64,000 nucleotides of DNA. Source: Chelatococcus reniformis. GTDB taxonomy: Bacteria > Pseudomonadota > Alphaproteobacteria > Rhizobiales > Beijerinckiaceae. Made by a program: the position numbers and the translations under genes. This document shows positions 39,561-62,912 of the stretch, piece by piece (position 1 is the first letter of the stretch; each line of letters opens with the position of its first letter). The stretch covers positions 310,001 through 374,000 of the forward strand of contig NZ_BMGG01000002.1 in the NCBI RefSeq assembly GCF_014640075.1, read 5' to 3'. Below the pieces are notes generated by a model, which did not search any database, was not told the DNA's origin, and saw only the letters and a list, made by a program, of their open reading frames with translations.

Positions 39561-40703
39561 CTAGCTCTGGGCGGCGGCGCGCACCACGCAGAGCAGCAGC
39601 CGTTCGCGCCGCGGCGAAAATGGCTTGGCCTTCATGCGCTTTCGCAGCCGCATCAGGCGGCCGGCTTCGAACGCGTCGATGACGCTGGCGTGGATATAGC
39701 TCTTGCGCGCCACTGCCGGCGTGTTGGACAGCCCATCGGCCACCTGTCGCACCGCCTCAAGGATCTGCGATTTCCGGCGCCGCTCGCTTGGTGCCGGAGC
39801 CATCTCGGACAGCGCCTCGACCGCCTCGGAGGACGCGATCAGGGTGCGGAAATCCTTGAGCGAGATGACGCGGCCCGCGGCCTGGCGCAGATAGGTGTTC
39901 ACGTCGCCGGGGTCTAGCGGGCGCACTTGCTCCCTATCGTCGAGATATTGGAATATGCGCTCGCCTGGCAGCTGCATCAGGCCGCGCAGTGAGGCCGCCA
40001 GCACATCGTCCTCGAAGCTGCGCTCCGTCGCCTTGCCGCCCTTGCCGCTGAAGCTGAGGCTGATGCGCTGCCCGCGCAGCCGGATGTTCGACTTGCATAG
40101 GGTCGTGGCGCCTCGGCTACCGCTGAGGCGTTCATAGCTCTGGTTGCCGGCACGTATGGCGGTTCGCTCGACCAGTCGCACGATGCTCGCCAAGGCTCGC
40201 TCGCGGCTTGGCCTGATGTCAGCGATATCACGCAGTATTTGCCGGCGGATCGCCGGCAAGGCCTCGACCAAATGCACGAGGCGGCGGGCCTTCAGGGCTT
40301 CGCGAACGTCGGTCCAATCCGCATGGTAACGGTATTGTAGGCGTCCCGCCGCATCGGTGCCGATGGCCTGGATATGGGCGCGCGGATCTGCGGCATAGAA
40401 TACGTTGGTGTAGGCCGGCGGCACGGCGAGCTTGTCGAGGCGCCGGCGGGCCGAGCGGTCCTTAAGTGACGCATCGCCCAGATGGCGCCCGGACTTCAGC
40501 ACGTAGACGAAGCGATCGCCGTCGCGGAGCCGCTCGATGGTCAGATCTCCGGGCGTGACGAGTTTTAGGCCGGCCGCGGCAGCGAGCCGGGCAATGAGAT
40601 TCTTGCGCGCTCGGGCGGAGGCGCTGTCGCGGCTCGGGGCTGGGGGAACGCCGCGACGCCGAGACGTCGCCTCTGTGGTGCCAGCAAATGCACTGTCGGA
40701 CAT
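39561..40703 (-). CDS. DNA topoisomerase IB (poxvirus-like)
   Basis: A type IB topoisomerase of 380 residues that relaxes supercoils through a 3'-phosphotyrosine. The N-terminal domain (GLKLVTPGDLTIERLRDGDRF, PPAYTNVFYAADPRAHIQAIG) is followed by the catalytic domain, with the active Tyr336 in TPAVARKSYIHASVI and the catalytic basic residues in SFSGKGGK and the VISLKDFRTL region. Bacterial homologues are frequent in Alphaproteobacteria, often with stress genes. The ATG at 40703 follows GAGGTCACGGC. A near-consensus EcfG site (CGAAC-N16-CGTT, one mismatch) lies upstream on the minus strand at 40780-40756. Confidence 0.9.
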   Translation of the reverse strand: MSDSAFAGTTEATSRRRGVPPAPSRDSASARARKNLIARLAAAAGLKLVTPGDLTIERLRDGDRFVYVLKSGRHLGDASLKDRSARRRLDKLAVPPAYTNVFYAADPRAHIQAIGTDAAGRLQYRYHADWTDVREALKARRLVHLVEALPAIRRQILRDIADIRPSRERALASIVRLVERTAIRAGNQSYERLSGSRGATTLCKSNIRLRGQRISLSFSGKGGKATERSFEDDVLAASLRGLMQLPGERIFQYLDDREQVRPLDPGDVNTYLRQAAGRVISLKDFRTLIASSEAVEALSEMAPAPSERRRKSQILEAVRQVADGLSNTPAVARKSYIHASVIDAFEAGRLMRLRKRMKAKPFSPRRERLLLCVVRAAAQS

Positions 40704-40905
40704 GCCGTGACCTCGATGCTGCGCCGGGGAACGTAACGATGCCGGGGCAGAGGACAACGCGGCGACCCGCCTTCGGTTCGGTCATCCTCGGAGGCTGGTT
40801 TTCGGGCTTCGGAACGGGCAGTGTGCCCGTGGTGACGAACCAAAGCGAAAGCCGTGATCCCCGCTCGCCACCGAATGCCAGGATGTCACACGCGCCCGGC
40901 CGGCG

Positions 40906-47471: not shown

Positions 47472-48659
47472 CTAATGATAGGGGTCGGCCGCATCTCGCA
47501 GGCCGTCGCCCATGAAGTTGAACGCCAGGACGACGATGACCACCGGCGCGATCGGCGCCAGCAGCCAAGGATAGAGGTTCACCGACGCCAGATTCTGCGC
47601 CTCGTTGAGCAGCACGCCCCAACTGGTGATCGGTGGCCGCAGCCCGAGGCCGAGGAACGACAGCGCCGTCTCGCCGAGGATCATCGACGGGATCGACAGG
47701 GTCGCCGAGGCGATGAGGTGGCTCATGAAATTCGGGATCAGGTGCTTGCCGATGATGCGGGCGCGTGAGGCGCCCATGAGCTCCGCCGCTTTGACGAAAT
47801 CCTCCTCGCGCAGCGCCAGCAGCTTGGAGCGCACGGCCCGGGCCAGCCCCGGCCAGTCGAGCAGGCCCAGGATGATGGTGATGCCGAAGAAGACCAGCAA
47901 CGGGCTCCAGTTCGCCGGCAGTGCCGCCGACAGCGCCAGCCACAGCGGCAGCTCGGGCAGCGAGCGCAGGATCTCGATGACGCGCTGGATGACGTTGTCG
48001 ACCCAGCCGCCGAGGTAGCCGGCAAGGCCGCCGAACAGCAGGCCGAGCGCGAACGACACCGCGATGCCCAGCAGGCCGACGGTGAGCGAGATGCGCGCAC
48101 CGTAGATGATGCGCGACAGCACGTCCCGGCCCAGGCGGTCGGTGCCGGCGAGGAACATGGTGCCGCCCTCCGGCGCGCAGACCAGGTGGAAGCTGGCGTC
48201 GAACAGGCCCCAGAAGCTGTAGGTGTCGCCCTTGCAGAAGAAGCGGATCGGCTGCGGCGTGCTGCGGTCGACCTCGTAGTCGCGCGTGAAGGTGTCGAGG
48301 TTGAACTTGAAGCTGTAGGGGTAGACGAAAGGCCCCACGAAGCGGCCTTCGTGCATCAGGTGCACAGGCTGCGGCGGCGCATAGAGAAAGTCGCCATGGC
48401 GCTTGGTGAGCGGGTAGGGTGCCACGACCTCGACGAACGGCAGCATCGCATAGAAAACCAGCAGCACGATGGCCGAGGCGAGGGCGACGCGGTGGCGCTT
48501 GAATTTCCACCAGATGAGCGTGAGGGCCGAGGCGCGCCAATAGCGCTCGTCCTCATTGGCCATCGGCTCGCTGGCGCCGGGATCGAATGGCCGCGGGTCG
48601 ACGAAGTGCGGCGTGCTGCCGGCGTCCGCCGGGGCTTTGGTGTGGGTGATGACGTTCAT
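47472..48659 (-). CDS. Peptide-type ABC importer permease (OppC/YejE-like)
   Basis: A 395-residue permease and last gene of the importer operon. After a first membrane helix (about 58-78) comes a long periplasmic insert with a Pro/aromatic-rich stretch. The transport core follows (GTDRLGRDVLSRIIYGARIS, the EAA loop EDFVKAAELMGASRARIIGKH) and ends NFMGDGLRDAADPYH. The N-terminal 50 residues are a polar cytoplasmic extension. It starts 6 bp after the OppB-like gene ends. The substrate may be a peptide, sugar or opine; not determinable here. Confidence 0.9.
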   Translation of the reverse strand: MNVITHTKAPADAGSTPHFVDPRPFDPGASEPMANEDERYWRASALTLIWWKFKRHRVALASAIVLLVFYAMLPFVEVVAPYPLTKRHGDFLYAPPQPVHLMHEGRFVGPFVYPYSFKFNLDTFTRDYEVDRSTPQPIRFFCKGDTYSFWGLFDASFHLVCAPEGGTMFLAGTDRLGRDVLSRIIYGARISLTVGLLGIAVSFALGLLFGGLAGYLGGWVDNVIQRVIEILRSLPELPLWLALSAALPANWSPLLVFFGITIILGLLDWPGLARAVRSKLLALREEDFVKAAELMGASRARIIGKHLIPNFMSHLIASATLSIPSMILGETALSFLGLGLRPPITSWGVLLNEAQNLASVNLYPWLLAPIAPVVIVVLAFNFMGDGLRDAADPYH

Positions 48660-48665
48660 CGCGAC

Positions 48666-49682
48666 CTACCGTGCCCCGAGCCGGATGCGTGGATCGAGCC
48701 AGGCCAGCAGCAGATCGGAGATCAGCATGCCGATCACGGTGAGGATCGCCACGAACATGAGGATGAAGGCGGCCAGGAACTGGTCCTGGCTGCGCAGCGC
48801 GCCGAGCAGGATCGGTCCCACCGTGGGCAGGCTCAGCACCAGCGACACCAGGATCGAGCCCGAGACGAGATGGGGCAGGATGTTGCCGATGTCGGCGACG
48901 AACGGATTCAGCGCCATCCGGAAGGGGTATTTGAGCAGCGCCTTGGTCGGCGGCACGCCCTTGGCCTTGGCCGTCACGTAATATTGCTTGCTGAGCTCGT
49001 CCAACAGGTTGGCGCGCATGCGTCGGATCATGGCGGCCGTGCCGGAGAGCCCGATGACGAGGGTCGGCACGATCAGGTGCTGGCCGAGCGACACCACCTT
49101 GTTCCACGACCACGGCGCGTTGGCGTATTGCGGGTCATAAAGACCGCCGATGGAAATGCCGAACCAGCGGTTGGTATAATAGAGCAGGATCAAGGCCAGC
49201 AGGAAATTCGGCATTGCAAGGCCGATATAGCCGATGAAGGTGGCCAGGTAGTCGCCCCACGAGTATTGACGTACGGCCGAGAAGATGGCGATCGGGATCG
49301 ACACGACGTGGACGAAGATGAGCACGGCGATGTTGACCAGCAGCGTCAGCCAGAGTGTGTCGCCGACGACCTCGTTGACCGGCCTGTCGAATTCGAACGA
49401 CCAGCCCCAATCCCCTTGCAGCAGGCCAGAGAAGCCGTTGGGGCCGGGCCACACGCCGATCCACACCAGGTATTGCTTCCAGACCGGCAGATCGAGGCCG
49501 TACTGCTTGATGAGGAACGCCGCCTTGGTGGCGGCGGCTTCGCCGCCCTGGGAGCGCAACTCGGCGATCTGGTTGGTCAGGAAGTCGCCCGGCGGCAACT
49601 TGATGATGACGAAGACCAGCGCGCTGATGATCAGCAGCGTGCCGGCCATGGTGAGCAGGCGGCGAGCGATGTAAGCGATCAT
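48666..49682 (-). CDS. Peptide-type ABC importer permease (OppB/YejB-like)
   Basis: A 338-residue permease beginning MIAYIARRLLTMAGTLLIIS, the standard OppB N-terminus, with six membrane helices and the EAA loop QYYVTAKAKGVPPTKALLKY. It ends WLDPRIRLGAR. The periplasmic loop after helix 1 (about 40-100) is longer than in E. coli DppB. The start overlaps the binding-protein stop by 4 bp (ATGA). Confidence 0.92.
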   Translation of the reverse strand: MIAYIARRLLTMAGTLLIISALVFVIIKLPPGDFLTNQIAELRSQGGEAAATKAAFLIKQYGLDLPVWKQYLVWIGVWPGPNGFSGLLQGDWGWSFEFDRPVNEVVGDTLWLTLLVNIAVLIFVHVVSIPIAIFSAVRQYSWGDYLATFIGYIGLAMPNFLLALILLYYTNRWFGISIGGLYDPQYANAPWSWNKVVSLGQHLIVPTLVIGLSGTAAMIRRMRANLLDELSKQYYVTAKAKGVPPTKALLKYPFRMALNPFVADIGNILPHLVSGSILVSLVLSLPTVGPILLGALRSQDQFLAAFILMFVAILTVIGMLISDLLLAWLDPRIRLGAR

Positions 49683-51625
49683 GGGGCTTTGGCGATCCGG
49701 CGGTCCTGGCGATCCCAGAAGATTTCGTCGATGCGGTAGATGCCGAGGAGGGACGTGGGGGCCCAGCTGTAGAGCGCCTCGGCCGGCAGGTTGGCGAGGC
49801 CGTCGCGCAGCACGATCGGCTGGAGGGCGCCGGCGACGGTGCCGATGATCCACTGGTTGTCGGCGTGCAGCGCCAGCATGGCATGCCAGGCCGCCGCCTG
49901 CTGGGCGGAATCGGTGGAGCGAAGCCAGGCGGTGTACGCCTCGAGGAGCTTTTTTGCCTCCGGCATGTCCACCGGCTCGCCGCTGGTGCCTTTCGTCTCG
50001 ACGTACTGGCCCCACCGCGGCCAGGCGAGATTGTCCTGATGCACCGGCGCGAGCTCGCCCGGCACCATCCCGGCGGTCGGGATGGCGTTGTCGAGCCCTT
50101 GGCTGGCCACCATCACCGTCTGCCCCTCGTAGGCCCGATTGCGCAGGATGGTGCGGTCCTGAGGCTTGATGAACAGCTTGAGGCCGACCTCACGCCAGAA
50201 CTCGGTGATCAGCTCGAGCGTGTCCACGGCAAGCCCGGTGTCGCCGTCGACCTCGACGACGATTTCAGCCGGGCGCCCGTCGGGCAGGTTGCGGATGCCG
50301 CCGCTCCCCTTGGCGAGCCCGACATCATCGAGCAGCTTGGCGGCCGCGGCACTGTCGTGTTGCGCCCACTTGCTGCGGTACGACGGCTCGAACAGGGCCG
50401 AGCCCTCGCGCACGGTGTTGTTGCCCTCCTGGCCGAGACCGAAGAGCAGCGCATTGTTGATGGTGTGGCGATCGATGGCGAGCGAGAGGGCGCGCCGAAA
50501 GCGCACGTCGCGGTTCAGCTGGCGCCAGACCGGATCGACCGTCGTGAGATTGGGATAAAGCGCCACCTCGGAGCCCCGGGCCAGCCGCCACAGCAGCGTC
50601 TTGTAGCCCTGCGCCCCCTCGCCCTGCTTCAGCACCGGGATGTCGTTCATGACGAGCCCGCGGGCGAGGAAGTCCACTTCGCCGGCGTTCGATTTGGCCG
50701 CGAACAGGCTGGCGGAGGCGACGTCGGCGAGCACCTGGTCCACATAAGGCAGCTGCTGGCCGGCGGTGTCGATGCGATGGAAATAAGGGTTGCGCTCGAA
50801 CACGATACGGGCGCCCGAGCTTGCCGGCACGGCGCGCCAGGGAAACAGCGTCGGCAGCTCTGGATTGGAGTTTTCCAGCATGCTGTCCATGCGGTTGTGA
50901 AGCGGGGCCCACGAGCGCACCTTGGCCTTCGCCACCAACTGGTCGAGCTTGTCCTTGTCGGCGTATTTTCCGTGGTAGTTCCTGAGAAAGTGGGCCGGCC
51001 GGTAGATGAAGGGGTCCTGCGGGGCGGCCATCGTCGGCAGGAACAGCGGGTTCGGCGTCGCCCAGGTGTAGCGCACCGTATGCTCGTCCAGCACCTCGAA
51101 GGTCGGCGGCTTGCCGTCGGCGAGCATGTAGGTCGGCACGCCCGCCGGACTGAGCTGCTTGTTGTTGACGATGTCTTCCCAATAGTAGCGAAAGTCCTCC
51201 GCCGTGAAGGGATACCCGTCCGACCAGCGATGGCCTTCACGCAGACGCAGCGTGAAGACCCGGTTGCCCTCGTTGTCGAGGGCCGAGAGAATATCCGGCC
51301 GCAGCACGAGCTTGTCGGTGTAGCCCACCAGGCGGGTGTAGGCGTTGGCCGAGAGGTAGCGCACGTCGCGCAGCTTGGCGATCAGGGTGGTCATCGAGCC
51401 CCCCGGCTTGCCGATGACGCGGCCGTTGGCGGCCAGATCGGAGACGAAGGGCTGCTTGGGCAGCCGCTGGGCGATCGGCGGCAGCTTGCCGGCCGCGACC
51501 TGCTCGGCGAACAGGGGCGCCTCCTGCAAGGCGATGTCGGCCAGCGCCCGGGTCGCCAGCGGCAGCACCGCGAGCGTGGCACCCGCCTGAAGCAAAAGCT
51601 CGCGCCGGTTGAGCACACGGGTCAT
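49679..51625 (-). CDS. Peptide-type ABC importer binding protein (family 5)
   Basis: A 648-residue solute-binding protein of the OppA/DppA cluster. The N-terminus [23 protein letters not shown] has an RR followed by a hydrophobic stretch, so export could be by Tat or Sec. RLREGHRWSDGYPFTAEDFRYYWED is the family signature. Large size and the WATPNPLFLP / RNPYFHRIDTAGQQLPYVD segments match the long subgroup (600 or more residues) often paired with a fused ATPase as here. It overlaps the ATPase gene by 4 bp. Confidence 0.9.
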   Translation of the reverse strand: MTRVLNRRELLLQAGATLAVLPLATRALADIALQEAPLFAEQVAAGKLPPIAQRLPKQPFVSDLAANGRVIGKPGGSMTTLIAKLRDVRYLSANAYTRLVGYTDKLVLRPDILSALDNEGNRVFTLRLREGHRWSDGYPFTAEDFRYYWEDIVNNKQLSPAGVPTYMLADGKPPTFEVLDEHTVRYTWATPNPLFLPTMAAPQDPFIYRPAHFLRNYHGKYADKDKLDQLVAKAKVRSWAPLHNRMDSMLENSNPELPTLFPWRAVPASSGARIVFERNPYFHRIDTAGQQLPYVDQVLADVASASLFAAKSNAGEVDFLARGLVMNDIPVLKQGEGAQGYKTLLWRLARGSEVALYPNLTTVDPVWRQLNRDVRFRRALSLAIDRHTINNALLFGLGQEGNNTVREGSALFEPSYRSKWAQHDSAAAAKLLDDVGLAKGSGGIRNLPDGRPAEIVVEVDGDTGLAVDTLELITEFWREVGLKLFIKPQDRTILRNRAYEGQTVMVASQGLDNAIPTAGMVPGELAPVHQDNLAWPRWGQYVETKGTSGEPVDMPEAKKLLEAYTAWLRSTDSAQQAAAWHAMLALHADNQWIIGTVAGALQPIVLRDGLANLPAEALYSWAPTSLLGIYRIDEIFWDRQDRRIAKAP

Positions 51626-53496
51626 GCGGCGGCCCTTTCGCTGGTGGTGGTGCGGACCCAGTGGTCGGGCTCGATTTCCTCCATCTGGCTCGGCCTGTCA
51701 TTGCCGAGGCCGAACGGGTGCGGCCAGGCGGTCGGATCGGAGAAGCGGCCGGTGCGCAGGGTGTCGAAGTCGAGCGGATGGTCGAGGTCGGGGTCCGGAA
51801 CCGCCGCCAGCAGCGCCTGCGTGTACGGGTGCACCGGGTTGCGGAACAGCAGCGCCTTCGGCGCCTGCTCCACGATGTGGCCGCGGCACATGACGGCGAT
51901 GGTGTCGGCGATATAGTCGACGACTGCGAGGTTGTGCGACACGAACAGGTAGGAAAGCCCCAACGCCGCCTGCAGGTCCTTGAGCAGGTTGAGGATCTGT
52001 GCCTGGACCGAAACGTCGAGCGCCGACACCGGTTCGTCGCAGAGCAGCACCTTGGGCGACAGCGCCAGGGCGCGGGCGATGCCGAGGCGCTGGCGCTGGC
52101 CGCCGGAGAAGGAGTGCGGGTAGCGGCGCAGGTGGCGCTTGTCGAGACCCACCATCTCGATCAGCATCTTGGCCTTGGCGAATTTCTCCGCCTCGCTGAT
52201 CTGCTCGTGGATGCGCAGCGGCTCGGTCAGCAGCTGATAGACCGTCATGCGCGGATTGAGTGACGAGAACGGGTCCTGGAAAATGAACTGGACGGCACGC
52301 CGGTAGCGCAGCAGATCCTCGCCCTCGAGCGATTGGACGTCGCGCAGGCCGGTGCCGTCGTCGAAGCGGATGCGACCCTCGTCCGGCTTCAGCGCCCGCA
52401 TGATCATCTTCGAGACGGTGGTCTTGCCACAGCCCGACTCGCCCACCAGTCCCAGCGTCGTGCCCGGCATCAGTGTCAGGTTCACGTCGGAGACGGCGCG
52501 CACCTGGCGCAGGTTGCCCGAGAACCAGCCGGCGCGGAGCGTGAACACCTTGGAGATGCCGGTGACGTCGAGCACCGGGCCCTTCGGGGTGGGGCCGACG
52601 GTGATCGGGGCCGCGGCGATCAGGTCGGCGGTAGCGATCTCGCGCAGCGGCGTCAGCCGTTCCCCCGGCTCCATGTCGAAGCGCGGCACGGCCCGCATCA
52701 GCGCCTTGAGATAAGCATGCTGCGGGTCGCGGAAGATGGCCTCCCGCTCCCCCGATTCGACGATGCGGCCGCGGTACATCACCACGACCTCGTCGGCCAT
52801 GTTGGCGACGACGCCCAGGTCGTGGGTGATGAGCAGCACCGACATGCCGGTTTCGGCCTGCAGGTCCTTGATCAATTCGAGGATCTGGGCCTGCGTGGTC
52901 ACGTCGAGCGCCGTCGTCGGCTCGTCGGCAATGAGCAGGGCCGGCTGGCAGATCAGCGCCATGGCGATCATGGCGCGCTGGCGCATGCCGCCGGACAGCT
53001 CGAACGGATAGGTCACGAAGACGCGTGCCGGATCGGGCAGCCCGACGCGGGCGAACACCGCCTCGGCCGCCCGGCGCGCCTCGGCTCGCGAGCCGCCCTT
53101 GTGCAGCAGGTAGGCCTCCGTGACCTGGTCGCCCACGGTGTGGAGCGGCGACAGCGAGCTCATCGGCTCCTGGAAGATCATGGCGATGCTGCCGCCGCGC
53201 AGGCCCAGCATCTGACGCCCGGAGGGGTCGAGCCGCGTGATGTCCACCGCCTCGCCATCCTGCGTCTCCTGGAAGACGATCGAGCCGCCGGCGATGGTCG
53301 CGGCCTTCGGCAGGATACGCAGGATGGCCTGGGCGGTCACCGATTTGCCCGAGCCGGACTCGCCCACCAGCGCCACGGTCCTGCCGCGCGGAATGGTGAA
53401 GGACACGCCGTCGAGGGCCCGTGTCGTCGTGCCGTGACTCGCGAAATTGACCGCAAGATCGCTGACGGCAAGCAGCGCGGGGCCGCTCACACCCAT
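51622..53496 (-). CDS. Peptide-type ABC importer, fused double ATPase (DppD-DppF-like)
   Basis: Two complete ATPase domains in one 624-residue chain, equivalent to OppD plus OppF. Domain 1 (about 5-270) has GESGSGKS, signature LSGGMRQR and Walker [13 protein letters not shown]. Domain 2 (about 300-590) has [17 protein letters not shown] and [12 protein letters not shown], both with switch His (LITHDLG, FVSHNLA). Both sites look functional. The ATG at 53496 follows GGGAGAGG. It is the first gene of the operon ATPase-binding protein-permease B-permease C, all with 4-6 bp spacing. Confidence 0.93.
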
Positions 53497-53686
53497 GGGC
53501 CTCTCCCTGACCGACCATGCCGCCGGCCGTCGCAGCCCGCAGCGTCGTTTCTCTTGTCCTGCGCGCGCGGCCACCACCGCGTGCTCGCGTTTGTCGTTGC
53601 CGCCCGCCGCTCCGAGCGGCCGAGCACCGTCACGCCGGTCGACCGGACGCGCGCCATACTACATCGGCTATCCGCAAGATGGATCA

Positions 53687-55651
53687 TCAAAAAAGCCTAC
53701 TCCGGCCGTCATCGACAGGGCCCGGTCCGGGCAGGGGCGCCGCGAACATGGACGGGGCGCTAGCAATCCGCGCGCCAGCGTGACCGGCGAGGGTGGCGAG
53801 CAACTCCTCGACGAAGGACCAGATCATATCGTCGTGCACCAGATGGTGGGTGAGCAGGCCGATCGGCTCAGGCTCGGCGGCGCCGGCGCGGTGCGCGACG
53901 GCCCGCGCCAGATCGGCGACGATCCGCTCGGGGTCAGCCAGGCTGCGCGTGCCGTGCCAGTCGATGGGGTCGATGTGGGTGTTGACCTGGCGCAGCCCCG
54001 GCACCGGCTCGGGCGCGGTGCGATCGTTGGCCGTGGACAGCCCGCCGTAGCCGAGGCCCGGCAGCCGCTCGACCAGTGCGGGCGCCACCCGGTTCCACGG
54101 TGGCACGAACACCGGCAGCAGGGCGGCGCCGAAGCGCCGGCGGGCCAGGTTCAGGGCGCCGGCGGCCTCGGTGGCGAGCTCGTCGATGCCGCGGTGGGCG
54201 CCGAACTCCGCCTTCTTCTGATCGGGGGGCGCGTGATTGGCGTGGGTCAGCCCGTGCACGAGCACGGTCACCATGGGCTTCCCGGCGAGCGCCTCGGCTA
54301 GCTCCGCCTGCGCACGGCCCGGGATCGAGGCGACGGCGAGCGGCGCGGCGTAGCGCCGGGCGACCGCAATGAGCCGCGTCAGCGCCCGGGTGGTCACGAT
54401 GGCGTCGTCGTCGCGCCACCAGAACGGCAGCGGGCCGGTGCCGGGATGGCGCTCGATCGCCGCCACGAGGGGGGTAAAGTCGAAGCGGCGCAGGCGCGCC
54501 GGCGCCCGGGCCGGGCGGGCGGCGACCCATTTCTCCACGATCTCGGCCGTACGCGTGGCGCCGTCGATAGCGATGCCGGAGGCGTCGGGGGCAGGACGGC
54601 GCAGCGCCGCATCGACGCCAGCAAGCAGCGTCCCCGGGTCGAGGCTGGCGCCATCGAGCGCCGTCACCAGGCCCCGCGCGGCGAACAAAGCGGCGCGCTC
54701 GCTCTGTTCCGTCTCGCCACCGTCGGCGAAGGGCACGACAACGGCCCGGGCGCGGGTGGCGATCAGGTCCAGTGCCGTGTTGTAGCCGAACTGGCTTACC
54801 GAGACGGCGCAACGTGCCAGCAGGGCGCGGAAATCCGGCCGGGCGCGCTCGACGGCGACGTTGGCCGCTTGCGCCTGCCAGGCGGCGAAGAGATCCGCGC
54901 CGACCCCCTGGCCGACGAGCAGGCGCCAGCGGCGGGCGGGGTCGCGCGCCGCCGCCGCGAGCGCCGTCGCAAAGAGCGTCTGCCCCGCCGCGCTGCCGCC
55001 CCCCGAGACGACGATTTCGCCGCTGGGCACCGGCTCTGCGGCCATGCCCGGCGGCGGGTCGTCGACATAGCCGGTGTAGCGCAGGCGTTCGGCAAGATCG
55101 GCGGCGACGGGCCAGGACGCGGTGAGCGGCACCACCGCCGGATCGGCGTGAACGAGGACACCGTCGTAGAAGCTGCGCAGAATGTCGTGGGCCTGGACCA
55201 GCCGGGCGGCCTTGCTCGGAGCCGCCAGGATGTCGCGCACAGAGGCCAGCACCAGCGGGCGCACGGCGGATGCCCGCGCCGCCTCCAGCAGAACCGTGAA
55301 CTCGTCGGCAAGCACGCGCCGGCCCAATGGGTATAGCTCGGTGATGACGACGTCGGGCTGCACGGCGTCGTAGGTGGCCCGCAGCACCGCACGCCGGCGC
55401 GCGGCCGCGGCGGCCGTGAGCGGGGTACCCGCCGCGTCGAGGAGAGTGGCGAAAGCGGTGCCGCGGACCTGCACCGGCTCGAGCTGCACCAGCCGCAGCC
55501 CGTCCGTGCGCACGAGGGGCGCCGGGCGTCCGCCCGATACCAGCGTCACCGCATGGCCGCGACCGGCGAGTCCCCGGCCGATGGCCGCCGCACGGGTCAG
55601 ATGACCGACGCCGAGGAGGTGCGTGACGGCGATCAGGATCCGGAGGCTCAT
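53687..55651 (-). CDS. Fusion: GT-B glycosyltransferase + polysaccharide deacetylase
   Basis: A 654-residue protein with two modules. Residues 1 to about 370 are a MurG/UGT-like GT-B glycosyltransferase (HLLGVGHLTRAAAIGRGLA, SGGGSAAGQTLFATAL, VSQFGYNTALDLIATRARAV for the donor side). Residues about 390-654 are a NodB-type deacetylase: PFWWRDDDA (Asp414-416) and HGLTHANHA supply the metal-binding Asp and His residues. The two could act on the same nascent glycan, adding a sugar and removing an acetyl group. The gene overlaps the preceding GT4 gene by 4 bp and ends the operon. The upstream open frame overlaps that gene and is not coding. Confidence 0.85.
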   Translation of the reverse strand: MSLRILIAVTHLLGVGHLTRAAAIGRGLAGRGHAVTLVSGGRPAPLVRTDGLRLVQLEPVQVRGTAFATLLDAAGTPLTAAAAARRRAVLRATYDAVQPDVVITELYPLGRRVLADEFTVLLEAARASAVRPLVLASVRDILAAPSKAARLVQAHDILRSFYDGVLVHADPAVVPLTASWPVAADLAERLRYTGYVDDPPPGMAAEPVPSGEIVVSGGGSAAGQTLFATALAAAARDPARRWRLLVGQGVGADLFAAWQAQAANVAVERARPDFRALLARCAVSVSQFGYNTALDLIATRARAVVVPFADGGETEQSERAALFAARGLVTALDGASLDPGTLLAGVDAALRRPAPDASGIAIDGATRTAEIVEKWVAARPARAPARLRRFDFTPLVAAIERHPGTGPLPFWWRDDDAIVTTRALTRLIAVARRYAAPLAVASIPGRAQAELAEALAGKPMVTVLVHGLTHANHAPPDQKKAEFGAHRGIDELATEAAGALNLARRRFGAALLPVFVPPWNRVAPALVERLPGLGYGGLSTANDRTAPEPVPGLRQVNTHIDPIDWHGTRSLADPERIVADLARAVAHRAGAAEPEPIGLLTHHLVHDDMIWSFVEELLATLAGHAGARIASAPSMFAAPLPGPGPVDDGRSRLF

Positions 55652-56772
55652 GACGGGCTCCCGCCGAGGAGGCCGAGCAGGCTCTCGCGCAATATGCCGG
55701 CCGTGGCCTGGAGGCTGCGCTCCTGGACGACGAAGCGGCGCGCGGCGACGCCCATGGCTCGCCGCTGGGCCGGCGCGGCGATGAGGGCCGCCGTGGCGGC
55801 GGCGAAGGCCGGCGCGTCCCCGGGGGGCGTCAGCCGTCCGGTTATGCCGTCGCGGACGACGCCGGCGACGCCGCCGAAGTGCCCGGCGACAACCGGGCAT
55901 CCGGCCGCCTGGGCCTCCAGCAGCACCATGCCGAAGGCCTCGTTGACCGCCGGCCAAAGCAGCAGGTCGTGGCTTGCATAGGCGGCATCGAGCGCAGCAC
56001 CGCTCATCGCCCCGCACAGCGCGACGCGCGCGCCGAAGGCGGCAAAGAGGCGTTCCACCTCGGGCTTGGCTGGTCCATCGCCGACGATGTCGAGGGTCCA
56101 GCTCGCGGGCTCGAGGTGACCGAGGGCATCGGCGAGCAGCCGGTAGGAAGCGAGCTTGTCGCCCTCGCGCATCATCGCCACCGCGAGCAGCCGCGCCGGC
56201 CCCGCCGCCGCGGTTCGGGCCACCGGCTCGGCGGGGAGGGTAGTGACGAACGGCGGCAGCGCGACCAGCCGCTGGCCCGGCGGCCGGGCCCGCGCCAGGC
56301 CGTCGCGGTCGGCTTCGTTGAGCACGAACACCAGCGCCGCCTGATCGAGCGCCGCTTCGGCGCCAGCGTGGCCCAGTCGCCAGGGGCTGGCTGCGCGCTT
56401 GCCGGCCCGAGACCCCTCGGCGACCACGTAGGGCAGCGCCATGGCACGCGCCACGGCGGGGCCGATCCAGTCAGGCGCCTTGTAGTAGACGTGATAGGTG
56501 AACCACAGCCGCGGCCGGGCATGCTCCGGCGCCGCTCGGCAGCGGGCGACGATGGCTCGCGCCTCGGCTTCCGCCTCGACCTGGATGGCGTGCTGCCGGT
56601 CCCCGTCGCCGGCCGGATCGTGCGAGCGCAGGCGCGAGAAGACCTCCGGAGCGAAGCCGGCCGCCGAGAGCCCACGCAGGAGATTGCGCGCCACCGTCCT
56701 GTCCCCGGAGGGCACCGGATGGTCCGGCGCCTTGAGCGGCGCATAGAAGGCCATGGGGATCGGCCCGGTCAC
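55648..56772 (-). CDS. Glycosyltransferase family 4
   Basis: A 374-residue GT-B enzyme. The acceptor-domain start is MAFYAPLKAPDHPVPSGDRTVARNLL-like, with GDRTVARNLLRGL typical of GT4. The donor domain has LDIVGDGPAKPEVERLF and the EX7E motif in NEAFGMVLLEA. No membrane segment; it works at the cytoplasmic face. The GTG start overlaps the upstream gene's stop (GTGA) and its own stop overlaps the next start (ATGA), so three genes are translationally coupled. Sugar specificity is not predictable. Confidence 0.9.
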   Translation of the reverse strand: MTGPIPMAFYAPLKAPDHPVPSGDRTVARNLLRGLSAAGFAPEVFSRLRSHDPAGDGDRQHAIQVEAEAEARAIVARCRAAPEHARPRLWFTYHVYYKAPDWIGPAVARAMALPYVVAEGSRAGKRAASPWRLGHAGAEAALDQAALVFVLNEADRDGLARARPPGQRLVALPPFVTTLPAEPVARTAAAGPARLLAVAMMREGDKLASYRLLADALGHLEPASWTLDIVGDGPAKPEVERLFAAFGARVALCGAMSGAALDAAYASHDLLLWPAVNEAFGMVLLEAQAAGCPVVAGHFGGVAGVVRDGITGRLTPPGDAPAFAAATAALIAAPAQRRAMGVAARRFVVQERSLQATAGILRESLLGLLGGSPS

Positions 56773-58064
56773 GGCGCGGCGCCATGGGCGCGGCGCGCCG
56801 CCGGTGCCGCCGCGGCCGGCGATCCCAGCGCTGTCCTGAGCCTGGATTCGATCAGGTCGATCCCCTCGGCCATGCCGAACCGGCCTTCCAGCCGGGCGAA
56901 GGCCGAGCGCCCGAGCGCTTCGCGGCGCTCGGGCTCGCGCGCCAGGAGATTGACGGCGTTGGCGAGCGCCTCCCAGTCTTCGGGCGGCACCAGCACGCCG
57001 TCTTCGCCGTCGCGCACGAACTCGGGAATGCCGGCAAAGGCGGTGGCGACGATGGCCAGCGCCTGGCTCGCCGCCTCCATGACGACGTTGGGCAGGCCGT
57101 CTTGGTCGCCGGAGCGCGCGCGCTTGGCCGGCAGCACGAAGATGTCGGCCTCGCGCAGCAGGGCGACCACGTCCGGCTGCGGGCGCGCCCCGAGGAACGC
57201 CGTTCGGCCCGCGATGGCGAGCTCCGCGGCCTGTGCCTTGAGCTCGCCGAGCATCTCGCCACCGCCCACATGGGCGAACTGCCAGTGCAGGTCGGGCGGC
57301 AGGGCCGCGAGCGCCCTCAGCAGGTCGCCGAACCCCTTCTTGGCGACCGCTCGCCCCACCGACACGATCCGCACCGGATCGGCCGGCTCCGCGCCCGTGC
57401 GCGGCGGCCGTGCCTCCGGCGGTGCGGGGAAACGCGTGAGGTCGAGGCCGTGATAGGCGAGCGCAACCCGCTCCGGCTGCGGCGCCAGCGCGGCCAGCAC
57501 GCGGTGGCCGGCCGCCGTGCAGGTCACGCCGAAGGTCGAGGCGGCAATCTTCTCCCGCTTTTCCCAGTCCGGCGTGGTCCAGATGTCTTTGGCATGGGCC
57601 GAGAAGCTCCAGCCGAAGCCGCGCAGCAGGGCTGCGTAGCGAACCACCGAGGCGGGCGTGTGCAGATAGTGCACGTGCACGTGCTGCGCTGTCGCCGGCA
57701 ACTCGCGGGCGAAGACGAAGGCTTGTCCGAGCCGCCGCACCCGATTGACGGTGAAATCGCGCCGCAGGTCGGCGAGGAAGGTGCGCAGCAGCGTGCCGAA
57801 GCCGGGCCGGCGGACCGACCAGGCCGTCCCGCGCAGCACGCGCAGGGGCGCCCGATGCAGGTACTCCGGCAGGTAGGTCACGGGCGCTGTGATCTGGCGG
57901 TGCATGGGATGCACGGCCTTGTCCGTCGGCCGTCGCAGCGACCAGATCGCCAGCGCCAGCCCGCGCCGCTCCAGCTCGAGCAACTCCTGGGCGATGAAGG
58001 TCTCGGACAGGCGCGGATAGCCCTTGACGACGACGGCGACGTGCGCCCCGGCTGGTGTGCGCAT
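56769..58064 (-). CDS. Glycosyltransferase family 4 (WcaL/exopolysaccharide type)
   Basis: A 431-residue GT4 enzyme. VVKGYPRLSETFIAQELLELE at the N-terminus is the hallmark of exopolysaccharide GTs such as colanic-acid WcaL. VHVHYLHTPASVVRYAA, SVGRAVAKKGFGDLLRAL and DGLPNVVMEA (EX7E-equivalent region) follow. It ends in an Ala-rich tail. I use the ATG at 58064 (MRTPAGAHVAV); a TTG at 58088 would add eight residues. It lies about 55 bp after the upstream GT gene ends. Confidence 0.9.
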   Translation of the reverse strand: MRTPAGAHVAVVVKGYPRLSETFIAQELLELERRGLALAIWSLRRPTDKAVHPMHRQITAPVTYLPEYLHRAPLRVLRGTAWSVRRPGFGTLLRTFLADLRRDFTVNRVRRLGQAFVFARELPATAQHVHVHYLHTPASVVRYAALLRGFGWSFSAHAKDIWTTPDWEKREKIAASTFGVTCTAAGHRVLAALAPQPERVALAYHGLDLTRFPAPPEARPPRTGAEPADPVRIVSVGRAVAKKGFGDLLRALAALPPDLHWQFAHVGGGEMLGELKAQAAELAIAGRTAFLGARPQPDVVALLREADIFVLPAKRARSGDQDGLPNVVMEAASQALAIVATAFAGIPEFVRDGEDGVLVPPEDWEALANAVNLLAREPERREALGRSAFARLEGRFGMAEGIDLIESRLRTALGSPAAAAPAARRAHGAAP

Positions 58065-58118
58065 CTCAGTGTGCGGCCCGCGCGCCAAGCGAATGTCGGC
58101 TCCGCCCCATCGGCTGGG

Positions 58119-59339
58119 TCACTCCGCCGCGTGGCTGCGCGCGATCGGCGGCTGGCGATGGTCGAGCCATCGGGCGAAGTCCCGCCGCACCGCGTCGGTG
58201 CCGTCGAGCAGCCCCGGCACGATGGCATCGCCGGGGCGGCGCTGGTTCGGCAGCCGCAGCAGGGCCTCGGCCATGCGCAGGGGGTCGCGGCGCCCGCCCT
58301 GCTCGACGATCATGCTGACGAGGCCGAGCCGCTCGGCCGCCACGGCGCGGATGTACTGTTCGAGCCGCGGCTTGCATCGTGGCACGATCAGGGCCGGCTT
58401 GTTGAACGAAAGCACCTCGCAGAAGGTGTTGTAGCCGCCCATGGCGACCACGGCGGTGGCCTTGTTCATGAGGGTTTCGAGCTTGCTGTCGAACGACAAC
58501 GCCTCCAGGCAGGGGTGCCTGGCGATGCGCTCCATGAACGCCTTGCAGCGCTCCCGCGCCATGAACGGGCCGAACACGATGAGGGCGGGCACGGAGAGCC
58601 GGGGATCGGCTTCGTAAGCGCTGATCACCCAGTCCAGCATGTCCTCGCCGTCGCCGCCGCCGCCGCTGGTGACGAGGATGAACGGGCGCTTCGTGATCTT
58701 CGGGTGCGGGTTGAGCTCGGGGTCGCGCGGCAGTCCGCGGCGCAAATAGCCGGTGTAGGTGATGCGGTCGAGGATATGCCGGGGCAGGTCGAAGGCGGCG
58801 AGCGGCTCGTAGATGTCCTTGAGGCCATAGACCCAGATGTCGTCGTAATAGGCCTTCAGCGCCTCGACCGCCCCCTTGCGCTCCCATTCGGGCACCAGGC
58901 GCGACGGCTCGTCCATGATGTCGCGGATGCCGAGCACGATACGGGCGCCGCGCGCCTTGGCCCGGTCCAGCGCGCCCATGACCTCGCCGCGGAAGCCGGT
59001 CGGCTCCTTGTCGATGATCACCATGTCGGGCCGGAAGCTCTCCACCGTCTGGCGAATGATGTCGCCTCGCAGCGCGGCCGCTTCGTCGATGCCCATGCCG
59101 AGGTTGAGCGTGCGGTAGTCGCCGTTGGCGAGCTTCACGACGCCCGGGATGCGGACATAGTCGACACCCGAGCGGAACTCGAAATTGCCGATGACCGGCG
59201 AGCCGGAAATGATGATGACCGAGACGTCGGGTTGGCCCGCGACGAGCGCATTGGCGATGGCACGGGAGCGTCGCAGGTGGCCCAGCCCGAAGGTGTCGTG
59301 GCTGTAGATCAGAACGCGGGCAAGACTCGTTGCATCCAC
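58119..59339 (-). CDS. MurG-like glycosyltransferase
   Basis: A 406-residue GT-B enzyme resembling the N-terminal module of the GT-deacetylase fusion (LIYSHDTFGLGHLRRSRAIA versus the HLLGVGHLTRAAAIG block), so the two are probably paralogues. The donor half has TSGGGGDGEDMLDWVI and MGGYNTFCEVLSFNKPALIVPR. It is probably peripheral to the inner membrane. I choose the GTG at 59339, which has GAAGAG upstream and gives the family-like start; ATGs further upstream add non-conserved sequence. First gene of the four-gene GT operon. Confidence 0.85.
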   Translation of the reverse strand: MDATSLARVLIYSHDTFGLGHLRRSRAIANALVAGQPDVSVIIISGSPVIGNFEFRSGVDYVRIPGVVKLANGDYRTLNLGMGIDEAAALRGDIIRQTVESFRPDMVIIDKEPTGFRGEVMGALDRAKARGARIVLGIRDIMDEPSRLVPEWERKGAVEALKAYYDDIWVYGLKDIYEPLAAFDLPRHILDRITYTGYLRRGLPRDPELNPHPKITKRPFILVTSGGGGDGEDMLDWVISAYEADPRLSVPALIVFGPFMARERCKAFMERIARHPCLEALSFDSKLETLMNKATAVVAMGGYNTFCEVLSFNKPALIVPRCKPRLEQYIRAVAAERLGLVSMIVEQGGRRDPLRMAEALLRLPNQRRPGDAIVPGLLDGTDAVRRDFARWLDHRQPPIARSHAAE

Positions 59340-59718
59340 GGGAAACTCTTCGGGCAAGACGAACGGAGCTCTTTGGTTACGGCGTGCGGACCGGACGCAA
59401 GCGTGCATGTCGACGCATGATCGCCGCCGCATGAAAGACCGGGCCGGGCCCTGCGGGTCCGAGCGCACCGGCTTCGGCATGGCAGGGCATATGCCATGTC
59501 CGATGGCTCGGACACGTCCACCCGAGCGCAAGCGCTCCTTGTCGGCCGTCCGTCATCGCGCCCCCCGCGTGTGTTCGGATCGTGGAAGCATCGGCTTCCC
59601 TCACGCTCCACGTTAGCACGTCTCCCGACCGGCGCATCCCCCCGACAGGGCCCCCTTTGCATTCGCCCATTTTGCCTTTAACTCAGCCAGTCGGCTGTCG
59701 AAACCCGCGGAGAGGGCT
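59340..59718. other. Divergent control region of the glycan locus
   Basis: About 380 bp between the GT operon (minus) and the ABC-like gene (plus). It should hold both promoters. The minus-strand frame of the GT gene stays open into it but without conserved sequence. I find no strong palindrome or EcfG motif. GGAGAGGG at 59709-59716 is the ribosome binding site of the ABC-like gene. Confidence 0.5.
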
Positions 59719-62478
59719 TTGGAGCGAAGCCTGTTCCGGTACATCTGGCGCCACTCCCGCCGCGATCAGCTCGTCATTTTCGCGGTCGTGCTCGCGTCGT
59801 TGCCGTTCTACTACTGGTCGCTGGATCTGCCCAAGCGCATCGTCAACGAGGCGATTCAGGGCGGCGCCTTCAAGAGCGGCAAGACCTCCACCACGTTCTT
59901 CGAGATCAGCTTCGATCTCCCGGGGTTTCTCGGCGGCCGTCACGTCGAGCTCTTTCACGGCCTCGACGTGGGCCAGCTCGGGTTGCTGTTCGGCCTGTCG
60001 AGCCTGTTCCTGTTCTTCGTGCTGATCAACGGCGCGTTCAAGTATTGGATCAACGTCGCCAAGGGCGCGCTGGGTGAGCGCATGTTGCGCCGGCTGCGCT
60101 TCGACCTGTTCGCCATCACGCTCCGGTTTCAGCCGGAGACGCTGCGTACGGTCAAGTCGTCGGAAACGGCGACGATGATCAAGGACGAGGTGGAGCCAGT
60201 CGGCGGCTTCATCGGCGATGCCCTGGTGGCGCCCATGCTGCTGGGCTCGCAGGCGCTCACTGCGATGGCCTTCATCCTGATGCAGAACCTCTGGCTCGGC
60301 ATCATCGCGGGCAGCATCGTAGCGGTGCAGTTCACGGTCATTCCGCGGATGCGCCGCATCCAGCTGCGCCTCGGCAAGCAGCGGCAGCTGCTCTCGCGGC
60401 GCCTTGCCGGCAAGGTCGGCGAAGTGGTGGACGGGCTGGAGGCCGTCCACGTGCATGATGCCACCGCCTGGGAAAAGGCGGACATGGGGCAGCGCCTCTA
60501 TGAGCTTTTCGACCTGCGCTTCCGCATCTATAAATGGAAGTTTCTGGTCAAGTTCCTGAACAACCTGCTGGCGCAGATCACGCCGTTCTTCTTCTACGCG
60601 GTCGGCGGTTACTTCGCGCTCAAGGGCACGCTCGACATCGGCCAGCTCGTCGCCGTCATCGCCGCCTATCGCGATCTGCCGCCGCCGCTCAAGGAGCTGA
60701 TCGACTGGGATCAGCAGCGTCTCGACGTCCAGATCAAATACGACCAGGTGGTCCAGCAGTTCTCGCCGGACCGGCTGTTCCCGACGGAGATGTTCGAGCC
60801 CGCCGAGGAGGCGCCACACCTCACCGGCCCGGTCAAGGCCGAAGACCTCCAGATCACCGATGCGCACGGGACTCCCATCCTCGAGCATCTGAGCTTCGAG
60901 CAGCAACTGCCCGTGCATCTGGCCCTCGTCGGTGACGGGACGCTGGCAGCCAGTGCCGTGGCGAGGGTGCTGGCGCGGCGCATCACCGACTACCGCGGCC
61001 GCATCCTCTATGGCGGTCAGGATCTCTCCCGCATCCCCGAATCGGTCATCGGCCGGCGCCTGGCCTATGCCGGTCCCGACCCGGTGCTGTTTCCCGGATC
61101 GCTCCGCGACAACCTGATCTACGGCCTGCGCCGCCAGCCCAAGTCCGGCGGCGACGCTGACAGCGCGGCGGAGCGCATCCGCCGCAGCGAGGCCCTGCGA
61201 ACCGGCAACCCTCTGCCTACGCCCGGCGCGGAATGGGTCGACTTCGCCGCGGTCGGCGTCTCCGACGAGGAGGAGCTCGACCAATATCTGATCAACATCC
61301 TCAGCATGGTCGGGCTGCACGACACGCTGTTCCGGTTCGGTCTGCTCGGCCGGGTCGATCCGCACCGCTATCCCGAGCTTGCCGAGCGCCTGATCGAGGC
61401 GCGCCATCAACTGCGCGACCAGATGGCCGACGCCGGCGTCGCCCATCTCGTCGAGACGTTCGATATCGACCGCTACAACACGCAGGCGACGATCGGCGAG
61501 AACCTGCTCTTCGGCGTGCCGCTCGGGCAGCCGTTCAAGGGACGGGGCCTCGCCGCCAATCCGGTCGTTCGCAAGGTCCTCGATGCCGGTCGGCTGACCC
61601 CGGACCTGCTGCGCATCGGCGCTCGCATCGCCACCACCATGTCGGAGATCTTCCGCGACCTGCCGCCCGGCCATCCGCTGTTCGAGCAGTTCTCGTTCAT
61701 CGCCGCCGACGAGCTCGACGAGTATGACGAGATTGTGCGCCGCTGGACGGTTCGGGGCGAAGCTGGCCTCGTCGGCGACGACCGCAGCCGGCTGATCGCG
61801 CTGCCGCTCGACTATATCGAGCCGCGCCACCGTCTCGGCATGCTCGACGACGGCCTGCGCGAGCGCATGCTCCAGGCCCGCCATGCCTTCCACGAGGCGC
61901 TCGAGGACAGCATCTGGAAGGGCATGGTCGAATTCTACGACGACCAGGCCGTCTGCGGCGCCGCGCCCTTGCGCGACAATCTGCTGTTCGGCCGCGCCGC
62001 TTACAACGTCGCCGACGCCCAGCCGCGCGTGACGGCCATGATGACCACCCTGATCGACGAGCTCGGGCTCAGGCTCGACGTGGAGCGCGTCGGCCTCGAC
62101 TATCAGATCGGGCCGGCCGGCCGGCTGCTGTCGCAGCCACAGCGCGCTGCGGTTTATCTCGGCCGCTGCCTTGCCAAGCAGCCCGACGTGCTCATCCTGG
62201 ACGGCGTGTTCTCGGCTTTCGGTGATACACAGATCAAGCCGATGCTCGAGGCGATCGTGGAGCGTTTCCGCGACAGGTCGATCGTCGCCGTGCTGCGTCG
62301 CGAGGATCAGGCCGATCCACGTCACTTCGAGATGCTCGTGCGCTTCGAAGGGACACAGCCGCATATCGTCCGCGGAGGCCGTGCCGGCGCGAACGGGCAG
62401 AGCGAGCCCGATGATCAGGACGGGCAGGAGCGGGGGGGCGCCGAGCGCGAGCCCGCCATTGTGGGGAATCGGATATGA
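59719..62478 (+). CDS. ABC-exporter-like protein with degenerate, expanded nucleotide-binding domain
   Basis: A 919-residue protein. Residues 1 to about 340 form the six-helix exporter membrane domain. The following ATPase domain is recognisable but all key residues are lost. Walker A reads GDGTLAAS (405-412, Ala411 for Lys), the Q-loop Gln is Pro453, LSGGQ is LSQPQ (804-808), the Walker B Glu is Gly829 and the switch His is Arg860. The stretch between the Q-loop and the signature is about 350 residues instead of about 60, and its NL-x-x-G element occurs three times (465-469, 595-599, 754-758). The start is a TTG with GGAGAGGG upstream. ATP hydrolysis looks impossible; it may be a scaffold, channel or regulated exporter. 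It overlaps the cNMP-binding gene by 4 bp. Confidence 0.85.
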   Translation: MERSLFRYIWRHSRRDQLVIFAVVLASLPFYYWSLDLPKRIVNEAIQGGAFKSGKTSTTFFEISFDLPGFLGGRHVELFHGLDVGQLGLLFGLSSLFLFFVLINGAFKYWINVAKGALGERMLRRLRFDLFAITLRFQPETLRTVKSSETATMIKDEVEPVGGFIGDALVAPMLLGSQALTAMAFILMQNLWLGIIAGSIVAVQFTVIPRMRRIQLRLGKQRQLLSRRLAGKVGEVVDGLEAVHVHDATAWEKADMGQRLYELFDLRFRIYKWKFLVKFLNNLLAQITPFFFYAVGGYFALKGTLDIGQLVAVIAAYRDLPPPLKELIDWDQQRLDVQIKYDQVVQQFSPDRLFPTEMFEPAEEAPHLTGPVKAEDLQITDAHGTPILEHLSFEQQLPVHLALVGDGTLAASAVARVLARRITDYRGRILYGGQDLSRIPESVIGRRLAYAGPDPVLFPGSLRDNLIYGLRRQPKSGGDADSAAERIRRSEALRTGNPLPTPGAEWVDFAAVGVSDEEELDQYLINILSMVGLHDTLFRFGLLGRVDPHRYPELAERLIEARHQLRDQMADAGVAHLVETFDIDRYNTQATIGENLLFGVPLGQPFKGRGLAANPVVRKVLDAGRLTPDLLRIGARIATTMSEIFRDLPPGHPLFEQFSFIAADELDEYDEIVRRWTVRGEAGLVGDDRSRLIALPLDYIEPRHRLGMLDDGLRERMLQARHAFHEALEDSIWKGMVEFYDDQAVCGAAPLRDNLLFGRAAYNVADAQPRVTAMMTTLIDELGLRLDVERVGLDYQIGPAGRLLSQPQRAAVYLGRCLAKQPDVLILDGVFSAFGDTQIKPMLEAIVERFRDRSIVAVLRREDQADPRHFEMLVRFEGTQPHIVRGGRAGANGQSEPDDQDGQERGGAEREPAIVGNRI

Positions 62479-62912
62479 CCCTCGAAACGGAAGTGCAGAC
62501 GTTGCGTCTGGTGCCGATGTTCAAGGACATCGATGCCGCGCGCCTCAAGCTGCTCGCCTTCACCAGTGAGCGGGTGAACTTCGCCCCGGACCAGCGCTTC
62601 TTCTCGCAGGGGGATGCGGGCGATGCCGCCTACGTGATCCTCGACGGTGTCGCGCACGTGCTGCTGGAAACGCCGAACGGTCAGCTCAAGGTGGCCGAGT
62701 TCGGCCGCAACGACCTGGTCGGCGAAATGGCGGTGCTGGCCGAAACTCCTCGCTCGGCGACGGTGACGGCCCAGGGCGAGGTCATCGCTTTGCGCATCGA
62801 CAAGCACGTCTTCATCGAGCTGCTCAGCCAGTTCCCGCAAATGGCCATCGCCGTGATGCGCGAGCTCGCCAAGCGCCTGGAGCGCACCAACGCCCGCCTG
62901 GCGCGGCAGTAG
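62475..62912 (+). CDS. Stand-alone cyclic-nucleotide-binding domain protein
   Basis: A 145-residue protein consisting of one CRP-type cNMP-binding domain and a short helical tail, with no DNA-binding helix-turn-helix. The phosphate-binding cassette is intact: VGEMAVLAETPRSATV with Glu84 for the ribose and Arg93 for the cyclic phosphate. It therefore probably senses cAMP or cGMP and acts through protein contact. The ATGA overlap with the degenerate exporter gene makes that protein the obvious partner. Confidence 0.9.
   Translation: MTLETEVQTLRLVPMFKDIDAARLKLLAFTSERVNFAPDQRFFSQGDAGDAAYVILDGVAHVLLETPNGQLKVAEFGRNDLVGEMAVLAETPRSATVTAQGEVIALRIDKHVFIELLSQFPQMAIAVMRELAKRLERTNARLARQ

Follow-up and report, generated by a model that had tools for sequence, protein, structure and literature searches.

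Can a protein with the fold of an ATP-binding cassette (ABC) exporter have given up ATP hydrolysis and come under the control of a cyclic nucleotide? The question is raised by two overlapping genes in a 64,000-nucleotide stretch of the Chelatococcus reniformis genome (contig NZ_BMGG01000002.1, positions 310,001 to 374,000), here called the window, to which all coordinates refer. The first gene (59719..62478, forward strand, TTG start) encodes a pseudo-ABC exporter of 919 residues, hereafter type A, and the second (62475..62912, forward strand) a stand-alone cyclic nucleotide monophosphate (cNMP)-binding domain protein of 145 residues; the two reading frames share 4 bp (ATGA). In Pfam searches, the 919-residue protein matches ABC_membrane with 37 bits against a cut-off of 28 and ABC_tran with 28.7 bits against a cut-off of 25, and no other domain, including any channel pore domain, was found in it at E-values up to 1. 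Under the same threshold, cNMP_binding (PF00027, 69.7 bits) is the only domain of the 145-residue protein, which has no DNA-binding helix-turn-helix domain of the kind present in CRP/FNR. The nearest named relative of the pseudo-ABC protein is found in Camelimonas lactis (67% identity); the host genome measures 6.8 Mb. We consider it somewhat probable (about 0.58) that the pair represents a conserved two-part signalling device: a membrane protein with the ABC exporter fold that works without ATP hydrolysis and is controlled by a cyclic nucleotide.

The original prediction, made from the sequence of the window, held that all five catalytic landmarks of the ATPase are substituted in one protein, and each substitution was confirmed in the 919-residue frame. 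The pseudo-Walker A motif GDGTLAAS (residues 405–412; 60931..60954) has A411 at the lysine site, P453 occupies the Q-loop glutamine column, the signature reads LSQPQ (residues 804–808; 62128..62142), D828-G829 stands for Walker B (62200..62205), and R860 lies in the switch-histidine column (62296..62298), all on the forward strand. The window protein was aligned with 80 homologues (81 rows, among which L162 is cut off in the nucleotide-binding domain, NBD) and scored at ten catalytic positions, with eight ordinary exporters encoded by the host genome as controls in the same columns. The window protein keeps 4 of the ten residues, the family rows 1–5 and the ordinary exporters 9–10; in a second, partly overlapping set (n = 41), 0–5 residues are kept. 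Neither a full Walker A (GxxGxGK[ST]) nor a full LSGGQ is present in any of the 81 or 41 family rows, and the three apparent DE matches to a Walker B regular expression all lie outside the motif. Single sites do survive, namely K411 in 18 of the 81 rows, Q453 in 7, E829 in 13 and H860 in 2; the near relative from Camelimonas is among these, row L115 reads LTGGQ at the signature, and D828 is replaced by asparagine in 27 rows. Loss of the catalytic set is universal in the family, and no single substitution is. The expectation that homologues share the substitutions therefore holds for the set, which is lost in all 81 rows, whereas loss at every one of the five sites is a property of the window protein; no homologue has normal Walker A, Walker B and LSGGQ in the corresponding columns. 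In the rows with K411, most of which fall into one branch with Kiloniella and Reyranella, the GK is followed by D or E and Walker B often reads N-E. Judging from these residues, this looks like a less eroded state.

Two trivial explanations were considered and rejected. Decay into a pseudogene is ruled out because the genes are under purifying selection and widely conserved: the ratio of nonsynonymous to synonymous substitution rates (dN/dS) is 0.01–0.25 in the membrane domain and the NBD alike in six close pairs of relatives, and 0.18 and 0.44 for the two halves in the more distant pair formed by the window protein and its Camelimonas relative. A frameshift or recoding artefact is ruled out by the uninterrupted frame and by alignments with homologues that cover nearly its full length. 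Purifying selection, together with wide conservation and the family-wide loss of the catalytic set, bears out the earlier claim that the function has changed rather than decayed.

Retention of the membrane domain and of the overall fold signals, likewise claimed at the outset, agrees with the two Pfam matches above cut-off and with the AlphaFold2 model (63 sequences in the alignment; mean predicted local distance difference test score, pLDDT, 88.1; predicted template modeling score, pTM, 0.82). Foldseek and VIA-align map residues 2–887 of the model onto type IV exporters. The NBD core aligns with the NBD of ComA over 223 residues (Z 25.9, 2.1 Å), and whole-chain matches include MsRv1273c (397 residues at 3.6 Å); whole-chain TM-scores from Foldseek are low (0.2–0.4), which probably reflects a different placement of the domains relative to each other. 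In the predicted structure, then, the exporter-type folds of both the transmembrane domain (TMD) and the NBD are kept. The NBD also contains an insertion of about 300 residues, unmentioned in the original prediction, which separates the Q-loop segment from the pseudo-signature. This insertion repeats the exporter segment that comes after the Q-loop (TIRENLLFG and the helices following it). Copy R1 (residues 446–545; 61054..61353) has P453 in the glutamine column and continues with FPGSLRDNLIYG, copy R2 (residues 576–640; 61444..61638) contains ATIGENLLFG, and copy R3 (residues 735–792; 61921..62094) contains AAPLRDNLLFG, all on the forward strand. Profile comparison gave a probability of 98.5% for R2–R3, 92% for R1–R3 and only 25% for R1–R2. 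As judged from these profiles, the R2–R3 duplication is firm, and R1 is assigned to the same series because of its match to R3.

The association with the cNMP-binding protein was followed through 120 loci, of which 113 are distinct after seven repeats were dropped; the window, the type A matches L016 and L026 (each with a cNMP match nearby) and the plasmid loci L171–L180 lie outside this count. A cNMP gene is adjacent on the same strand at 96 loci and fused in frame at 7, it was not found at 9, and at 1 the contig ends. The adjacent genes start −4 to 260 bp from the pseudo-ABC stop codon, 36 of them with the 4-bp overlap seen in the window. Fusions occur in two separate clades and need two changes on the tree; in the plasmid loci L173 and L174 from Azospirillum and Ruegeria, outside the count, the cNMP match also lies inside a long pseudo-ABC gene. 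Eight of the nine loci without an adjacent cNMP gene belong to Methylobacterium genomes that encode an unlinked orthologue (59–63% identity to that of the window); the ninth is from a Phreatobacter metagenome-assembled genome (MAG), in which the best match reaches only 33%. The proposed pairing is thus conserved, with 103 of the 113 loci linked or fused. The phosphate-binding cassette of the window protein, GEMAVLAETPRSATV (62721..62765, forward strand), includes E84 and R93, and in a 111-row alignment that counts the seven repeat loci G83 is present in all rows, E84 in 103 (aspartate in the other 8) and R93 in 105. This conservation is consistent with the intact ligand pocket that had been predicted. 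Regulatory domains of protein kinase A are among the closest solved relatives of the cNMP protein, and the channel SthK is also among its matches. Coupling of the pseudo-ABC protein to a cNMP sensor is well supported by these gene-level data.

The membrane domain (residues 1–350; 59719..60768, forward strand) is the most conserved part of the protein, with 63 invariant columns out of 350 in 63 sequences. Its third transmembrane helix (TM3) carries the signature ExEPxGGFIG...P (residues 157–172; 60187..60234, forward strand), and the motif E157-x-E159-P-x-G-G-F-x-G (ExEPxGGFxG) marks a lineage that extends beyond type A. Type B is a paralogue, represented in the same genome by C7 (L071) and elsewhere by L072–L083, in which the NBD is eroded further than in type A. 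Type C (L085–L090) comprises TMD-only proteins of about 320–380 residues, one open frame reaching 490. E157 is found in 113/113 type A and 6/6 type C rows, E159 in 110/113 type A rows with an acidic residue in 6/6 type C rows, and P172 in every row of the three types (113, 13 and 6, respectively). Type B retains little of the motif besides P172 and G166. The motif is absent from all eight ordinary exporters, one of which (L196) has a glutamate in the E157 column. In the model, the TM3 helix is broken at residues 164–175, with low confidence. A profile of the type A membrane domain matches 6/6 type C and 11/13 type B proteins and 0/8 ordinary exporters, and in a tree of membrane domains, in which exporters have long branches, types A and C join with a support of 98/100. 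Among the immediate genes of the four type C loci that were read, out of six, no exporter NBD gene is present; at L086, the next gene encodes a soluble tandem ATPase, which we interpret as ABC-F. Since TMD-only relatives exist and the catalytic set is lost, the membrane domain apparently has no need for ATP. At type B loci, an MBL-fold hydrolase gene comes next in 10 of 13 cases, and polysaccharide-type genes were identified in the vicinity by eye, without a domain search.

In taxonomic terms, a 34-row profile (E ≤ 1e-60) matched 132 of 385 genomes sampled evenly across Alphaproteobacteria, or about one third, a count that includes a few genomes matched by type B or fragments only (e.g. G010). 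In a phylum-wide sample, 31 of 398 genomes matched, all from the same class or closer. A scan of contigs, represented here by the best 80 of at least 578 confirmed relatives, a selection that favours close ones, also found the family in Betaproteobacteria MAGs and in Plasticicumulans, and among 262 plasmid records it occurs on Rhizobium and Sinorhizobium replicons. We found no description of the pseudo-ABC/cNMP pair in the open-licence literature, subscription papers being outside this coverage. Type A belongs to a family of bacterial membrane proteins that is widespread and, apparently, undescribed.

What the pair may serve is suggested by its neighbours, for which flanks of about 6–8 kb or less were searched, so that the counts given here are lower bounds. 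Upstream in the window, on the reverse strand, lie genes for a GT28-like glycosyltransferase (58119..59531, divergent), two GT4-type glycosyltransferases (56769..58088 and 55648..56772) and a GT28-like domain protein (53687..55660). The C-terminal part of the last (approximately residues 400–630) has no Pfam match and is 42–47% identical to annotated polysaccharide deacetylase genes at three plasmid loci. Glycosyltransferase genes homologous to those at 53687–59531 occur at 80 of the 113 loci, two or more of them at 75, and it is this neighbourhood that points to a surface-glycan role. A peptide-type ABC importer follows on the reverse strand (47472..53577; fused tandem ATPases, SBP_bac_5 and two permeases), and a strong match to its ATPase was found in the flanks of 23/113 loci.

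A class III cyclase domain is encoded at 30 of the 113 loci, in 26 cases downstream on the same strand, compared with about 0.4 expected from the cyclase density of the host genome; the loci are related and hence not independent. The host genome itself contains 19 cyclase-domain frames, the nearest on the same contig lying beyond the window at distances of about 22 and 32 kb. One type of locus cyclase combines a 2Fe-2S ferredoxin domain (Pfam Fer2) with a hydrophobic N-terminal part and is reminiscent of the redox-regulated CyaC of Sinorhizobium meliloti. Plasmid pRL11 of Rhizobium johnstonii carries, in succession and all in the same orientation, genes for the cyclase, the ABC importer, glycosyltransferases, the pseudo-ABC protein and the cNMP protein; the S. 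meliloti pSymB locus is similar, with an intervening methyltransferase gene on the opposite strand. The first gene of the stretch covered at the R. johnstonii locus is a DUF3095 gene (L171 10-1236), which precedes the cyclase gene by about 2.4 kb. In one study, root colonisation is reported to depend on the O-antigen enzyme pRL110056 (PMC11103875). By its tag number, pRL110056 could lie near the glycosyltransferase genes of the pRL11 locus. The MBL-fold hydrolase family seen beside type B is also encoded at 14 of the 113 type A loci (among them L051, L058, L061–L063, L065 and L066), 8 of which have a cyclase as well. It matches a ribonuclease structure weakly in sequence (E-value 9e-4), and a cyclic-nucleotide phosphodiesterase is a possible identity that we offer as an idea only.

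Collectively, the conserved cNMP protein, the fusions in two clades and the cyclases at the loci suggest that type A is controlled by a cyclic nucleotide. Most likely, type A serves surface-glycan synthesis or export as an ATP-independent, ABC-fold protein under such control. In the mechanism that we envisage, cAMP or cGMP would be made by a class III cyclase, whose gene sits at the locus in some members of the family and at another place in the genome in the others, and would be bound by the 145-residue protein through its intact phosphate-binding cassette. The loaded protein would then dock on the C-terminal, pseudo-NBD side of its partner, as the fusions suggest for unfused pairs too, and the pseudo-NBD, enlarged by the Q-loop-downstream repeats, may substitute for ATP-driven closure by relaying the signal to the membrane domain. 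Finally, the membrane domain with its broken TM3 and acidic ExEP motif might open, or might exploit ion or lipid gradients to move a substrate, on behalf of the glycan that the glycosyltransferases encoded nearby produce; this last step is the weakest, and ligand binding, transport and the direction of transport are all inferred.

Several observations weigh against this account. K411 persists in 18 rows, so that ATP could be bound without hydrolysis there. No cNMP match was found in the fetched regions of the 13 type B (18 kb each) and 6 type C loci, which implies that the lineage can do without the sensor. The glycosyltransferases occur at 80/113 loci only, so that a link to glycans is not shown to be universal, and 83 of the 113 loci, as well as the window, have no cyclase in the searched flanks. 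Lastly, the structure prediction proposed for the pair was run on a natural fusion, L134, and yielded a model in which the cNMP part lies mostly below a pLDDT of 50, for which reason we claim no docking pose. The original idea of a two-component device gated or scaffolded by a cyclic nucleotide instead of being driven by ATP is supported in part, through the shared loss, the pairing, the fusions, the retention of an unlinked partner in eight of the nine exceptions and the locus cyclases.

The strongest competing explanation, which we regard as unlikely, is that the protein is a pseudo-enzyme that transports nothing and acts as a cyclic-nucleotide-dependent platform recruiting or regulating glycosyltransferases at the inner membrane. 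Such a scaffold would fit the loss of the catalytic set and the frequency of glycosyltransferase neighbours (80/113), but conservation is centred on the membrane domain (63/350 columns invariant) and includes the acidic residues of TM3, which would be superfluous in a mere anchor. It is less probable still that the protein is the dead half of a heterodimer whose ATP-competent half is encoded elsewhere, the cNMP protein being only a modulator. Exporters with one degenerate nucleotide-binding site are indeed well known (PMC7756269, PMC12038006); however, the 30 commonest clusters of neighbouring genes at 89 loci, judged by the first 60 residues of one representative each, included no competent half that we recognised, and the existence of TMD-only relatives shows that the lineage can manage without an NBD in the same protein. 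ATP might alternatively be bound as a structural ligand and not hydrolysed, the cyclic nucleotide being a secondary regulator. We give this very little credence: K411 is kept in 18 of the 81 rows, but the serine or threonine after it is D or E in 18/18, D828 is asparagine in 27/81, and the lysine itself is absent from 63/81 rows, including the window. Equally remote is the view that the two are ordinary neighbours, paired through nothing but common regulation, and that the cNMP protein has its site of action elsewhere; the genes are separable, both being kept unlinked in eight Methylobacterium genomes, but in-frame fusions in two clades and linkage or fusion at 103/113 loci speak against it. 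A heterodimer of types A and B is not favoured, since type B is the only form matched in genomes G010 and G050, and for most genomes with type A no type B is among the matches listed (nine candidates scored per genome).

Returning to cyclic-nucleotide control without ATP hydrolysis, a more specific scenario can be put forward tentatively, at less than even odds: an ABC exporter would have turned into a cAMP- or cGMP-gated channel, or an ion-coupled transporter, for surface glycans or lipid carriers, its NBD being rebuilt by segment repetition as a signal relay and later shed in type C, so that stages of the conversion would coexist. To our knowledge, Alphaproteobacteria have many class III cyclases and few known effectors. 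If the proposal is true, the pair would form a distinct class of bacterial cyclic-nucleotide effector, and the family offers a concrete, genetically tractable candidate.

Two further genes of the window are recorded for completeness. An ORF of 718 codons (45269–47425) joins FAD-dependent monooxygenase-type and alpha/beta hydrolase domains in one frame, and positions 39561–40757 encode a topoisomerase IB of the eukaryotic-type family.

Among known systems, type IV (B-family) exporters such as MsbA, TmrAB and P-glycoprotein resemble the window protein in the TMD and NBD folds over residues 2–887; unlike them, type A has lost the catalytic set, has an NBD insertion with repeats and the TM3 motif, and is accompanied by a cNMP partner. 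In SUR-type ABC proteins, an impaired nucleotide site is put to regulatory use. As far as we know, these proteins and exporters with a degenerate site retain one or more sites that work or bind ATP, in contrast to the type A family, in which a competent set is present in 0/81 rows. In cyclic-nucleotide-gated channels, e.g. SthK, a cNMP domain controls a membrane protein, and the cNMP protein of the window matches the SthK domain in sequence; unlike in these channels, the membrane part of the window protein has an ABC exporter fold and no Pfam pore domain. TIGR03896, a model for cNMP proteins of cyanobacteria that are associated with bacteriocin-type ABC operons, places a cNMP protein beside an ABC exporter; the cNMP protein of the window matches it weakly (38 bits compared with a cut-off of 161).

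The remaining comparison is with the SbmA-like peptide transporters (SLiPTs), such as SbmA and BacA. No match to the SbmA_BacA family (PF05992) was found in the whole protein at E-values up to 1, nor at E-values up to 10 in its TMD or in either of two type C proteins, in searches whose HMMER filters drop weak matches. SbmA-like transporters have a proton-coupled glutamate ladder; type A conserves E157 and E159 in TM3, which may or may not be equivalent to the SbmA glutamates. Relative to SLiPTs, type A belongs to a different sequence family, retains a dead NBD and has a cNMP partner. The TMD-only type C has a SLiPT-like layout, yet joins type A in the tree, which was built without SLiPT sequences. 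According to PMC13316013, SLiPTs also have an exporter-type TMD that works without ATP and conserved acidic residues, and are proposed to derive from full-length ABC transporters by loss of the NBD. On that basis SbmA comes closest as a precedent for an ABC exporter fold that dispenses with ATP (PMC13316013), beside which the family described here would add another ATP-free line of the same fold, with its intermediates still visible.

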